Below are positions 55,268 to 64,000 of a stretch of DNA of 64,000 nucleotides, one piece after another. Source of the DNA: Anastrepha obliqua. Lineage: Eukaryota > Arthropoda > Insecta > Diptera > Tephritidae. The DNA is taken from assembly GCF_027943255.1 (NCBI RefSeq), contig NC_072896.1, positions 30,158,501-30,222,500 of the forward strand. Reading direction: 5' to 3'. Positions within the stretch are counted from its first letter, which is position 1; each line of letters begins with the position of its first letter. The notes beneath the pieces were generated by a model. It was given only the letters and a program-made list of their open reading frames with translations. It was not told where the DNA came from and did no database searches. Position numbers and translations under genes: made by a program.

Positions 55268-55562
55268 GACGGCCGCCGTAGCCGAATGGGTTGGTACGTG
55301 ACTACCATTCGGAATTCAGAGAGAATGTAGGTTCAAAAAAGTTTTTTCTAACACCGGTCCCCCCTCGGCACGCAATGGCAAACCTCCGAGTGTATTTCTG
55401 CCATGAAAAAATTCCTCATAAAAAATATCTGCCATTCGGAGTCGGCTTGAAACTGTAGGTCCCTCCATTTTTGGAACAACATCAAGACGCACGCCACAAA
55501 TAGGAGGAGGAGCTCGGCCAAGCACTCAGAAAGGGTGTATGCGCCAATTATACATATATATA
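55268..55562 (+). mobile_element. tRNA-derived SINE, near full length
   Basis: Head GGCCGCCGTAGCCGAATGGG with a good A box; the B box is damaged (AGGTTCAAAAAAG). The body and 3' end GTATGCGCCAATTATA with an (AT)n tail are complete. Confidence 0.87.
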
Positions 55563-57966: not shown

Positions 57967-58257
57967 GTCGCCGTAGCCGAGTGGGATGGTGCGTGACTAC
58001 CATTCGAAATTCGGAGAACGTAAGTGAAAAAGTTTTTTCTAATAGTGGTCGCTCCTCGGCAGGCAATGGCAAGCTTCCGAGAGCATTTCTGACATGAAAA
58101 AACTCCTCATAAAAAATATTTGCTTTAGTTCGAAGTCGACTTAAAACTGTAGGTCCCTCCATTTGTGGAACAACATCAACACGCACACCACAAATAGGAG
58201 GAGGAAAAACGGTCAAACACCTAACAGAAGTGTACGCGCCAATTACTTATTTATTTT
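57967..58257 (+). mobile_element. tRNA-derived SINE copy
   Basis: Head CGCCGTAGCCGAGTGGGATG; the B-box region is partly deleted (GAACGTAAGTGAAAAAG). Body complete, 3' end GTGTACGCGCCAATTACTTA with a TTTATTTT tail. Confidence 0.87.
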
Positions 58258-58637: not shown

Positions 58638-58681
58638 CGTCGCACAGTGATTCAGGTATATGGGCTAATCGGACAAAAATC
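58638..58681 (+). repeat. Transib left end: CGTCG target, 23-RSS-like repeat
   Basis: CGTCG then CACAGTG, 23 bases, ACAAAAATC. The heptamer equals the consensus V(D)J recombination-signal heptamer, and the nonamer differs from its consensus (ACAAAAACC) at one position. Confidence 0.85.
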
Positions 58682-59229
58682 ACTACTCCTGTATTACTTT
58701 ACCGATTTTAATTTATTAAAAGCAGTTGTGTAGCTCATGTATAGAGTTACAACTGTAGCATGAAAAAAAAGTTCTGGGCTAAGTTAGGAGGCAGGAAGTA
58801 TAAACGAAAAATTTTAGAATATTAAACATTGAACTTTTAATAATATTAATTTATTTAAAACAATAATTTTTGCTATACATTTCAAAAAATCAAAATTATA
58901 TTTCCTCTTTAATTAGCTAGGAATATTTTTAACGCATTCACCAACTTTATATAATAAATTTTAAATAATAAAATTGAATGAAGAGATGACATCCCAAAAT
59001 TAAATTTTTCGATTTTAACTGGTTGTTTAAGAACTTCTTTTGTATTCATTTGTTTTGGTGTAGCTCCACAAATGAAGCAAGTTTGAGTAGAATTAGTCTC
59101 TGATAAGGTATTAATGCAACTTTCATCAAGCATTGTAAAGTGAAATTTAAAATTTACAGTGTAATTTTTGTTTTGAAAATTTATAGTTATAGGTTTTAAA
59201 TCGTTTATTTCTTGCTGCAGTCTCAAGCC

Positions 59230-62200
59230 GGAGGATGGTTCCATGTGTAGAAGTCCACGCAAGTGGGGAAAGTTACTGATCGCCATTCACTTGGGAGTGG
59301 CCAGGACGATTCTTCTACATATGGTTCAAGCAGCTCACAACGTCCGGGATTAGCCCACGTATCCTCTGGTTAGCTTCCGAACACCCGTTCGGGAGTGAGC
59401 TAAAGTGAGAAGGCGAAGCATCCCAGCATAGCTGGTTGTGCGCTGGGTTTGGGACCCGCCACTTAAAAAGCCCCCCCAATGAAAACAGCAACAAAGCCTC
59501 GGATGAGAACTTCCAACACTGATGACGACCCCTGCAAACGAAATAAGGAATACGAATTGAGGGCATGCACCTGGAATGTCCGGTCCCTTAATGGGGAAGG
59601 TGCCTCTGCCCGGCTGGTTGATGTCCTCGTGAGAGTAAAGGCTGACATCACTGCCATCCAAGAGATGCGATGGACGGGGCAAGGTAAGAAAAACATAGGA
59701 CCTTGCGACGTCTACTACAGCTGCCATGTAAAGGAGCGCAAATTCGGTGTCGGATTTGTTGTGGGAGAGAGACTTCGTCGCCAAGTACTGTCGTTCACTC
59801 CGGTGGACGAGCGTCTCGCAACAATCCGCATCAAAGCGCGATTTTTTAACATCTCGCTAATTTGCGCCCACGCCCCGACGGAAGAGAAGGACGATGCGAC
59901 CAAGGATTCTTTCTATGAGCGCTTGGAACGTTCCTATGAGCGCTGCCCCCGCCACGACATAAAAATCGTGCTTGGCGACTTCAACGCCAGGGTGGGCAAG
60001 GAGGGAATTTTTGGTCCCACAGTCGGAAAATTCAGCCTGCACAACGAAACATCCGGTAACGGACAGAGGCTGATCGACTTCGCCGGGGCCCGAAACATGG
60101 TAGTCTGCAGCACCAGATTCCAGCATAAGAAAATACACCAAGCTACCTGGCTGTCTCCTGATCGAAAAACGCGAAACCAGATCGATCATGTTGTGATAGA
60201 TGGAAGACACGCTTCTAGTGTATTAGATGTACGTACGATCCGAGGACCCAACATCGACTCGGATCATTACCTTGTTGCAGCCAAACTCCGCACACGCCTC
60301 TGTGCAGCAAAAAACGTACATCTACCCACGCAAAGAATGTTCGACATCGAAAAGCTGCAATCACAACAGACAGCCAGAAGATTCGCCACTCGACTCTCAC
60401 TCCTGCTCTCGGAGAGCACTGCCCAACACACCGGCATGCGCGAGCAATGGAGCAACATTTCTCGTTCCCTACGTACCGCCGCCGAAGAAGAAATCGGATT
60501 CCGGCGAGCCCGAAAAAACAATTGGTACGACGAGGAATGTCATGCTGCCGCCGAAAGAAAAGATGCCGCCTATAGAGCCACGCTGCGATCGGGCGCAACG
60601 CGAGCCATGTGGGATCGCTACAGAGAGCTAAAAAAGGAAGAGAGACGTATTATCCGACATAAGAAACGTGAGGCCGAAATACGTGAGTGCGAGGAGCTTG
60701 AGATGCTGGCCAATAGGAACAACGCCCGAAAATTTTACCAGAAAGTTCGGCGGCTTACAGAAGGTTTTAAGACCGGGGCGTTGTTCTGTAAGAACAAAGA
60801 CGGCGATATGGTGACTGACGTACAGAGCAATCTTAAATTATGGAGGGAACACTTCTCGAACCTGTTAAACGGTGACAGCTGCGCATGTCATAGAGAATGT
60901 GAAGATCCCGATACCCCAATCGTTGACGACGGAATTGTCGTTCCGTGACCCGACCATGACGAGGTGAGAATAGCAATATCACGGCTAAAGAACAACAAAG
61001 CCGCGGGCGCCGACGGACTGCCGGCTGAGCTATTCAAACATGGCGGCGAGGAGCTGGTAAGGTGCATGCATCAGCTCTTATGCAGAATATGGTCGGATGA
61101 AAGCATGCCTGCCGATTGGAATTTAAGTGTGCTCTGCCCAATCCATAAGAAGGGCGATCCTGCAATTTGTGCCAATTACCGCGGGATTAGTCTTCTAAAT
61201 ATCGCCTATAAGGTTCTAGCGAGCGTATTGTGTGAAAGGCTGAAGCCCACTGTCAACCAACTGATTGGACCTTATCAGTGTGGCTTCAGACCTGGAAAGT
61301 CTACCATCGACCAACTATTCACAATACGCCAAATCTTGGAAAAGACCCATGAAAGGAGAATCGACACACACCATCTTTTCGTCGACTTCAAAGCTGCATT
61401 CGACAGTACGGAAAGGAGTTACCTGTATGCCGCTATGTCTGAATTTGGTATCCCCGCAAAACTAATACGGCTATGTAAGATGACGTTGCTCAACACCAGC
61501 AGCGCCGTCAGAATTGGGAAGGACCTCTCCGAGCCGTTTGATACCAAACGAGGTTTCAGACAGGGTGACTCGCTGTCGTGTGACTTCTTTAACCTGATGT
61601 TGGAGAGCATCGTACGAGCCGCAGAACTTAATCGCTCAGGCACAATTTTTTATAAGAGCGTACAATTGCTGGCGTATGCCGATGATATTGACATCATCGG
61701 CCTTAACAACCGCGCTGTTAGTTCTGCCTTCTCCAAACTGGATAAAGAGGCAAAGCGAATGGGTTTGGTGGTGAACGAGGACAAAACGAAGTACCTCCTG
61801 TCTTCAAACAAACAGTCGGCGCACTCGCGTATCGGCACCCACGTCACTGTTGACAGTTATAATTTTGAGGTTGTAAAAGACTTCGTGTATTTAGCAACCA
61901 GCATTAACACCGATAACAATGTCAGCCTTGAAATCCAACGTAGAATCTCTCTTGCCAACAAGTGCTACTTTGGACTAAGTAGGCAATTGAGCAGTAAAGT
62001 CCTCTCTCGACGAACAAAACTAACACTCTACAAGACTCTCATCATGCCCGTCCTAACGTATGGCGCAGAAGCTTGGACGATGACAACATCCGATGAAGCG
62101 ACGCTTGGAGTGTTCGAGAGAAAGATTCTGCGTAAGATTTTTGGACCTTTGCACGTTGGCAACGGCGAATATCGCAGACGATGGAACGATGAGCTGTATG

Positions 62201-62500
62201 AGCTTTACGACGACATAGGCATAGCGCAGCGAATAAAGATCCAGCGGCTTCGTTGGCTGGGTCATGTCGTCCGAATGGATACAAACGCTCCGGCTTTGAA
62301 AGTATTCGATGCGGTACCAGCTGGTGGTAGCAGAGGAAGAGGAAGGCCTCCTCTGCGTTGGAAAGATCAGGTGGAGAAGGACTTGGCTTCACTTGGTGTG
62401 TCCAATTGGCGCCGGTTAGCACGAGAAAGAAACGACTGGCGCGCTTTGTTAATCTCGGCCAAAATCGCGTAAGCGGTTATCGCGCCAATTAAGAAGAAGA
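59230..62500 (+). mobile_element. Full-length RTE-type LINE inserted in the Transib
   Basis: About 3.27 kb flanked by AGTCTCAAGCC at 59219-59229 and 62501-62511, an 11-bp target duplication. It has a short 5' untranslated part (about 250 bases), one long protein frame, a very short 3' part ending CGCGCCAATTA and a terminal (AAG)n repeat, which is the RTE pattern rather than poly(A). Confidence 0.93.
59479..62472 (+). pseudogene. RTE endonuclease-reverse transcriptase, one in-frame stop
   Basis: Single frame of 998 codons interrupted only by TGA at 60946-60948. Apurinic-type endonuclease first: CTWNVRSLNGEGASARLVDV, TAIQEMRWTG (catalytic Glu), LICAHAPTEEKD, VLGDFNARVG and IDSDHYLVAAKL (final Asp-His). 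After an Arg-rich linker the RT begins SRLKNNKAAGADGLPAELFK, then ANYRGISLLNIAYKVL, QCGFRPGKSTIDQL, HHLFVDFKAAFDS and LAYADDIDIIG (YADD at 61675-61686). The C-terminus has PVLTYGAEAWTM, RLRWLGHVVRMD and GRGRPPLRWKDQVEKDL. RTE proteins nick the target and reverse-transcribe their RNA there; related proteins are often labelled craniofacial development protein 2-like. The stop falls between endonuclease and RT and may be a CpG transition (CGA to TGA). Confidence 0.93.
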
Positions 62501-63417
62501 AGTCTCAAGCCTTCTGTTTTAACTAAATCGGAATTTTCTTTAACAAAAATAAATTTAATTGGTCGACAGAAAAATGTTGACGTAGAGCGAGGTTTATTCC
62601 AAAAAATATAACCTTTTTCATCTGACAAGTTAAGGGGTGACATGGCAACTAAAAATAAATATTCGTCAGTCATTTCTGTGGAGCTAAATACTTGTTTGTA
62701 GGTGCTATGCCCAGAGCTTCCATCGAATCCGTATTTACATGTCAGAGTTAAAGTTTCACTTTTTATATATTCTTTGTCTAATATTGATTTTAAAATGCTT
62801 TTTAATGTATAATCAAGAAGTTGTTGTAGATTTATTTCAGATCCTTGTTCTGTGGTTATAATATCTTTTGGTAATAAACTGTCTCGAAACTGTCGCAGTT
62901 TATAGATGCTAGGTAAAAATTCTGAATGCACACCATTAATAATTGATCTAAGTAAGTTATATTTTCTCTGAGAAAGTTCTAACTGAAGATAAAGCGCTAA
63001 AGTTTCCTGTAAAGTTAATGAATGTTTTTTTAATTCCTTAAACTCAACCTGACTATTACTTTTTTTAGATAATTCTTTTACCACAAAAGAAAGCTCCTCC
63101 AAGGTGTATTTTGAGACCAGTTCTTCAATTCGCCTCTTTTTAGTCTTCTCACTTGACTCCCCAAAAGCTACATATGGTCTTCCACGAGAAGTGCTTTGTT
63201 CAGCAAAAGTGTTACCTGGAACAGCTGGTTTTCTTAAAATAGCTTTTAGTGATGAGGTCATATATATTTCAGAGTTCAGCCATTTGATTTCTTTGGCTAA
63301 AAACTGTTCTTTTCTGCGAAATTTTTTTTCCCATTTAATATTTATTTTTCCACAAAAAATGCCAAAAGACTTTTCAAATTCCCGCTTAGTTGCTTTCGTG
63401 ACAGTCTGAAGTCTCAT

Positions 63418-63972
63418 TAGGTTTAGAACCTTTTCAACTAACTTATTTTTCCTTTATTTTTTGGGCAATGAAATCCATGTATCCACCAAATCTTTATTTT
63501 TTATATTTGACAAAGTACCTAAAAAATAAAAATTCGGAATAAAGTACAACTTTGCGCAAAAAAAGACCTATGCCTTTAAAAACAGAACAGTTTAAAATAT
63601 CAAATAATAATATCACCTTTTGGCACCTTTTACCAAAAATAGAGTTTTCTAAAAATAATGACTACTTTACAAAAAAAATTAAGAAAAATATCAAACATAT
63701 ATTAAAATATTTACATACCTTACTGAATATTTGCCATAATAAACGAGTCAAACTATAAAATATCGAAACGTTCAGAACGAACTACCATACAATAATAAAT
63801 GTTGATCAAATCTAAAAAAAACAAAATAGGATTTTATTTAGGTAGACTTTATCATAATTTTACTGATAAGGAAACAAAAAATAAAAATAAACTTAAGGTG
63901 ATTTTATTTGAGCAATATAATGAAGATTTTATTTCCATTTTAGTTTTTCTAAAATATTGCTTTTAATTTTTT
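63418..63972. other. Transib 5' untranslated region
   Basis: AT-rich sequence between the transposase ATG (63417) and the right terminal repeat. It may contain the element promoter or an upstream exon; no motif could be assigned. Confidence 0.4.
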
Positions 63973-64000
63973 GATTTTTGTCCATTGTTTAAATCACTGT
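63973..64000 (-). repeat. Transib right end: 13-bp-spacer RSS-like repeat, cut by window edge
   Basis: On the minus strand: ACAGTG, 13 bases (ATTTAAACAATGG), ACAAAAATC. A C at position 64001 would complete the heptamer; CGTCG should follow at 64002-64006. Confidence 0.75.

Follow-up and report, generated by a model that had tools for sequence, protein, structure and literature searches.

Heptamer-nonamer signals at 13- and 23-bp spacings bound a Transib family of Anastrepha obliqua and are probably read much like vertebrate 12/23 signals

The window analysed here, a stretch of 64,000 nucleotides of the Anastrepha obliqua genome (NC_072896.1, positions 30,158,501 to 30,222,500), contains at its right edge a Transib element (family A) whose two ends carry CACAGTG-23-ACAAAAATC and CACAGTG-13-ACAAAAATC, with identical nonamers as described earlier, and these ends are probably read by the transposase much like vertebrate 12/23 signals. 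Taking the window together with the adjoining assembly letters, the element occupies 58643-64001 with CGTCG on each flank. The preliminary description had placed the element end one base past the window, and this is correct: position 64001 completes the heptamer and CGTCG follows, the predicted C being found on the minus strand while the plus strand reads G. The transposase lies on the minus strand, so that the 23-bp end is the 3' end and the 13-bp end the 5' end. The heptamers at both ends are of the CACARTG type in inverted orientation, as in the Transib superfamily. The features, with positions numbered from the first letter of the window, are:

58638-58642, strand not applicable: left TSD copy CGTCG (right copy at 64002-64006, beyond the window)
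58643-64000 in the window, final base 64001, minus strand (from the transposase): Transib element, family A
58643-58649, plus strand: heptamer CACAGTG of the long-spacer (3') end, from the letters
58650-58672, plus strand: 23-bp spacer of the long-spacer end, from the letters and copy comparison
58673-58681, plus strand: nonamer ACAAAAATC of the long-spacer end, from the letters
58909-59229, minus strand: second transposase piece, downstream of the retrotransposon insertion, resembling P0002 by eye
59230-62511, plus strand: nested non-LTR retrotransposon with endonuclease and reverse transcriptase ORFs, from the ORFs and direct repeats
62512-63417, minus strand: transposase N-terminal part, with the GRP-motif region followed by the HzTransib-aligned part, from the ORF and HzTransib match
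63973-63981, minus strand: nonamer ACAAAAATC of the short-spacer (5') end, from the letters
63982-63994, minus strand: 13-bp spacer of the short-spacer end, from the letters and copy comparison
63995-64001, minus strand: heptamer CACAGTG of the short-spacer end, its first base (64001) past the window edge

The gene within the element is a broken RAG1-like Transib transposase interrupted by the non-LTR retrotransposon, which is flanked by an 11-bp direct repeat (AGTCTCAAGCC; 59219-59229 and 62501-62511), and the ORF at 58909-59229 stops short of the full C-terminal part. The window transposase ORF matches HzTransib with an E value of 4.6e-24, bearing out, together with the motifs at both ends, the initial identification of a RAG1-related Transib with 23/13 RSS-like ends; the protein of a second Transib family of this genome (family B, P0012) matches HzTransib at 1.5e-115. 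An AF2 model of P0012 (pLDDT 92.4) aligns to 6pqx with a TM score of 0.94 by target length, and after 6pqx, RAG1 chains match the model at E values of about 1e-19 to 1e-15. The sequence and model comparisons point to a RAG1-like DDE transposase of the Transib superfamily, the DDE assignment being a whole-protein match rather than a comparison of single catalytic residues. A GRP motif is present at residues 79-81 of the window protein, and a passage of PMC9435367 equates this motif in Transibs with the RAG1 nonamer-binding domain (NBD). By this published motif the region is predicted to be NBD-like, while the fold match of the GRP-motif part to the RAG1 NBD is weak. The match to the solved HzTransib chain starts at about residue 133-137, past the GRP motif, so that little of the NBD region appears to be covered by the solved chain. 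As to a RAG2-like gene, no second long ORF was recognised in the window copy beyond the transposase pieces and the retrotransposon; family B carries, besides its transposase, one opposite-strand ORF of 195 aa, with a 146-aa ORF also present in one of three copies.

The simplest account of the unequal spacers, raised in the preliminary description, is a 10-bp deletion private to the window copy. A right end, sought within the fetched 6 kb, was located for 29 of 36 left-end copies of family A, and because all 29 carry spacers of 23 and 13 bp, a private deletion is ruled out and we give it practically no credence. All four motifs are exact in 23/29 copies, and the 5-bp TSD (mostly CGNCG, GC-rich) is exact in 25/29. 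The GG before the nonamer, thought at first to be conserved, proves at the 13-bp end to be the minority form (6/29, with AG in 23/29). No indel was found in either spacer across the 29 copies, an outcome that ungapped copy selection favours; indels are also rarer in the spacers than deeper inside the element, an observation on which we place no weight since the copies were picked by ungapped scans. The transposase ORF is broken in all 10 family A copies of 2.6-3.1 kb that were examined, so the family, judged by its reading frames, is probably no longer autonomous.

Compared alone, the spacers of the two ends share 7/13 identities with one 10-nt gap, a score equalled by 11.8% of shuffles, and spacer homology as such was dropped as not significant; with the nonamer included the ends match 11/11 at an offset of +10 (0/2000 shuffles). 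Genome-wide, the exact pattern heptamer-N5..35-nonamer occurs 302 times in 836 Mb versus 12 times for its reversed control, and from the control count about 0.001 chance occurrences are expected per 64 kb. That AT-rich ends have come to resemble RSSs by chance, unrelated to V(D)J signals, is a reading to which the variation of the second element between families lends something (ACAAAAATC, CCAAAAAT[CA], AAAAAAGT[CA] and AAA[AC]AATTC, with ACATTGGAT/TCATAGGAA in F4). Against it stand a transposase that is a RAG1 homologue bearing the GRP motif and the roughly 25-fold excess of the exact pattern over its control, even if some two thirds of the 100 matches listed belong to a 7-bp-spaced repeat; we consider chance resemblance very improbable.

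Asymmetry of one helical turn recurs in other Transib families of the genome. Both ends were located for 9 of the 11 families tried (the F1 3' end and both F12 ends are missing from the set), six being asymmetric, with spacer pairs of 13/23, 14/24, 14/24, 13/23, 12/22 and, in F10, exactly 12/23, and three symmetric. An 11-mer scan placed the best end-to-end offset at +10 in A, B, F2, F4 and F6, at +11 in F10, and at 0 in the symmetric families F3, F7 and F9. In all six asymmetric families the gap difference is 10 or 11 bp and it is the upstream side of the transposase that carries the short end; were the families independent, +10/+11 would arise jointly in the six by chance with a probability of ~2e-7. 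The one-turn asymmetry of the same polarity is strong in four families and weak in two (B and F4), whose short-end nonamers are poor. In family B a gap of 1-2 yields 23 identities over the whole end versus 20 for a gap of 10; against this nearly symmetric reading, the 11-mer scan and the likeness to the F2 spacers speak for 14/24. In some Transibs of this genome the transposase frame is long and open and the copies are nearly identical; B and F10 seem to have been active recently. Among 12 stretches of viral contigs, no Transib relative was confirmed.

In F10 the ends were tallied element by element. Exact 23-ends partner 36 of 40 scored 12-ends (full matches taken from 414 first-look candidates), leaving 4 without a listed 23-end, while 11 of 48 exact 23-ends have no listed 12-end. 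No 12/12 element was found among the 40 scored 12-ends, or with one partial match also checked, and no 23/23 pair among the 48 exact 23-ends.

Our favoured reading, which we hold with reasonable confidence, is that family A uses one heptamer-nonamer signal at two spacings, its nonamers bound by an NBD and a short and a long end synapsed together. The nonamers would be contacted by the predicted RAG1-like NBD; the one-turn difference would leave both facing the same side of the helix, where a hinged nonamer-binding dimer could bridge the short-end and long-end nonamers, and synapsis would likely join one short with one long end, with a preference for unlike ends. Alternatively, the transposase may read mainly the heptamer and first bases with the nonamer auxiliary, the 10-bp step being an old inherited indel. 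The coexistence of the symmetric families F3, F7 and F9, the poor short-end nonamers of B and F4, and passages of PMC7204232 in which invertebrate RAGL complexes (which are not Transibs) likely use the terminal 15-17 bp and are argued to be relatively insensitive to asymmetry are all consistent with such passive asymmetry, and inheritance alone would suffice to produce elements that pair a short with a long end. It accounts less readily for six families sharing one polarity and a step of 10 or 11 bp (spacers 12-14 / 22-24), for a best-matching stretch, beside or within the nonamer, that shifts with the step, or for the absence of spacer indels in 29 copies, bearing in mind the ungapped selection, and we judge it unlikely.

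Finally, asymmetric 12/23-like ends are already published for Transibs, and family A is thus an unusually clean example of a described class rather than a new system, its spacers of 13 and 23 bp lying within 1 bp of 12 and 23 and its nonamers being identical. Drosophila melanogaster Transib5 and Anopheles gambiae Transib2, N1, N2 and N3 are so listed in PMC8355894 (after Kapitonov and Jurka 2005), and PMC9435367 gives asymmetric TIRs throughout Transib Subgroup I and in part of Subgroup II. Set beside family A through the published listing, Transib5 and the Anopheles elements belong to other hosts and families while sharing a RAG1-like transposase, an insect host, heptamer-nonamer ends and 12/23 (±1) spacers; here, the checks took in many copies, their TSDs, the orientation of the ends to the gene and several families of a single genome. 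HzTransib (Helicoverpa zea, PDB 6PQN series), the closest solved transposase to the family A and B proteins, is described in PMC8289069 with TIRs that are symmetric and show little similarity at the nonamer. Amphioxus ProtoRAG/RAGL (ends 27/31, as given in PMC8355894) and Aureococcus RAGL (4/13, as given in PMC9435367) resemble family A in their RAG1-like enzyme, 5-bp TSD and asymmetric ends, and differ in carrying RAG2L and in a second element unlike the RSS nonamer.

At stake is the origin of the 12/23 rule, either in the transposon or together with RAG2, which PMC8355894 discusses as the origin of the need for asymmetric ends. Family A could represent an independent or ancestral form of the rule, as suggested earlier, in a genome where asymmetric and symmetric families occur side by side. 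In a tentative and rather doubtful extension, insect Transibs would obey a RAG2-free rule of the 12/23 type: an asymmetry of one turn, its polarity fixed with the short signal before and the long signal after the transposase, retained in divergent families and exactly 12/23 in the recently amplified F10, would be read by the NBD and would force unlike ends to pair. V(D)J recombination would on this view have taken the rule over from the transposon, and RAG2 would not be where it arose. The 12/22, 12/23, 13/23, 14/24 and 22/22 Transibs of this one genome provide matched natural substrates and enzymes for direct testing. The V(D)J signals of vertebrate antibody genes are cleaved by RAG1/RAG2 under the 12/23 restriction. 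Family A shares with the 12RSS and 23RSS the CACAGTG heptamer and the pairing of one short with one long spacer, and its nonamer is one base from the V(D)J nonamer ACAAAAACC; it differs in that its signals are the ends of a mobile element, with a spacer of 13 rather than 12 bp and no RAG2 seen, whereas the spacers of F10 are exactly 12/23, as in V(D)J signals.

The Transib element of the window, a member of what we call family A, lies in an 836 Mb assembly in which the window occupies C5:30158501-30222500 (C5 being one of its contigs). The element, its ends, the insertion it carries and two neighbouring copies of a repeat are as follows.

58643-64001, transposase ORF on the minus strand: Transib element, family A, recognised by its end motifs and flanking target-site duplications (TSDs)
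From 58643, plus strand: left end, CACAGTG-23 bp-ACAAAAATC
Up to 64001, minus strand: right end, CACAGTG-13 bp-ACAAAAATC
59230-62511: non-LTR retrotransposon (3.3 kb) with endonuclease and RT domains, within the transposase gene and interrupting its ORF
55272-55289: element-free copy of the repeat TAGCCGAATGG, exact
57967-57984: element-free copy of the repeat TAGCCGAATGG, 2 mismatches

CGTCG flanks the element at either side. The preliminary description had placed the right terminus one base past the window, and plus-strand base 64001 is G, with CGTCG next. The minus-strand ORF matches the Helicoverpa zea Transib transposase (E 4.6e-24), and the nested retrotransposon is bordered by an 11-bp duplication, AGTCTCAAGCC. 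The database proteins closest to the family A transposase come one from A. ludens and one from A. obliqua. The gene model P0001 (Anastrepha ludens LOC128864767) fuses Transib transposase N-terminal sequence with part of a fibrinogen C domain, a fusion that could be a prediction artefact.

A left-end search of the genome returned at least 36 places, each fetched with about 6 kb, and a right end lay within that distance in 29 of the 36. Spacers measure 23 bp on the left and 13 bp on the right in all 29 two-ended copies, as found by an ungapped end scan that some copies with spacer indels would escape. This comparison across copies, proposed in the preliminary description, overturns the simpler explanation offered there, a 10-bp deletion confined to the window copy. 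Of the 29, 23 have exact motifs at both ends, heptamer and nonamer alike; the others have an altered right heptamer (L024), left nonamer (L028, L038), left and right nonamers (L032), left heptamer with a disrupted right nonamer (L037), or left heptamer and left nonamer (L040). The 5-bp TSD is exact in 25 of the 29 and has a one-base mismatch in 3 more, while L040 has none. Copies vary in length between 1346 and 5359 bp, and the shorter ones too carry the same two ends and TSDs; none of 10 copies of 2.6-3.1 kb holds an intact transposase ORF (longest, 262 aa). The right end was not reached within the fetched 6 kb at seven loci (L012, L013, L019, L035, L041, L042, L044), and L019 has a properly oriented one about 10 kb away.

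Most family A TSDs fit CGNCG. By raw count, the repeat TAGCCGAATGG (up to 2 mismatches) adjoins 10 of the 29 insertions. Insertions at the dispersed repeat that starts GCCGCCGTAGCCGAATGG fall on its CGCCG, and this repeat seems to be a favoured target; its element-free copies in the window mean that paralogous empty sites exist. Genome-wide, CACAGTG-N5..35-ACAAAAATC occurs 302 times versus 12 for a reversed control. The 100 matches listed (contig C1 and part of C2) include spacers of 23 bp (9), 13 bp (9) and 24 bp (5); about two thirds are a repeat with 7-bp spacing. This repeat, CACAGTG-7 bp (CCGGAAG)-ACAAAAATC, frequent among the first 100 places in the assembly, is absent from the window and fetched loci.

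A transposase search of the genome turned up 133 matches, and many of them combine 30-39% identity with a long open frame. Families were grouped by eye; ends were sought in 11 and both recovered for 9, with only the 5' end found for F1 and neither for F12.

Transib families with both ends recovered (for asymmetric families, first the spacer on the 5' side of the transposase, then that on its 3' side)
A: 13/23, asymmetric
B: 14/24, asymmetric; three copies about 99.7% alike, each with a 627-aa open transposase frame; ends read from two copies
F2: 14/24, asymmetric; TSD CAACG; one copy
F4: 13/23, asymmetric; TSD CAATG; one copy
F6: 12/22, asymmetric; TSD CAACG; one copy
F10: 12/23, asymmetric; TSD CGCCG; one copy, then by search
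F3, F7, F9: symmetric; one copy each

The many families with long open frames, and near-identical copies in some (B, F10), suggest recent activity, as judged from sequence. At L054, where a family B copy ends, CATTGTG stands in place of CACAGTG as the right heptamer, although the 5-bp TSD, CAATG, is intact.

The short end lies upstream of the transposase in all six asymmetric families. Compared by 11-mers, the two ends match best at an offset of +10 in A, B, F2, F4 and F6, of +11 in F10, and of 0 in F3, F7 and F9. Taken singly, the offset is strong in A (reached by 0/2000 shuffles), F2 (3/2000), F6 (32/2000) and F10 (0/2000) and not strong in B (128/2000) and F4 (503/2000). The joint chance of +10 or +11 in six families is about 2e-7 assuming independence, which is not complete, given an apparent relationship among the A, B and F2 long spacers. 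This regular one-turn step and the fixed polarity across families would be the part of interest to specialists.

The 12-bp end of F10 gave 414 first-look candidates, and the 40 scored in full are 99-100% identical across 81 bases with no length change; one further match is partial. For the 23-bp end, a query made of the heptamer, the spacer and the nonamer's first five bases finds 48 exact copies. Such a 23-end lies 1.5-3.8 kb from 36 of the 40 12-ends, the other 4 having no listed partner, and 11 of the 48 23-ends have no listed 12-end. The 40 scored 12-ends include no 12/12 element, and the 48 exact 23-ends no 23/23 pair at distances up to 12 kb. This pairing fits a 12/23-like rule, and descent predicts the same equally. 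The assembly stretch G000:C3:106987415-106987568 holds two F10 12-ends in head-to-head arrangement, separated by about 10 bp; in one of them the first 18 bases are missing.

We infer a functional, 12/23-like rule. One short and one long end would probably be bound at their nonamers by a predicted RAG1-like nonamer-binding domain and synapsed as an unlike pair, a mechanism we consider likely, with some reserve because fold evidence for that domain is weak. Searches of the Transib literature, judged mostly by titles and abstract openings, gave no prior report of family A or of fixed polarity; those that joined Transib to Anastrepha, to Tephritidae or to a helical turn brought up papers on unrelated topics. 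Some Transibs have 12/23 asymmetric terminal inverted repeats (TIRs; PMC8355894), asymmetric TIRs are reported throughout Transib Subgroup I and in part of Subgroup II (PMC9435367), and most Transib families have symmetric TIRs (PMC8289069). Family A is a well-documented new addition to the asymmetric Transibs, a class already in print.
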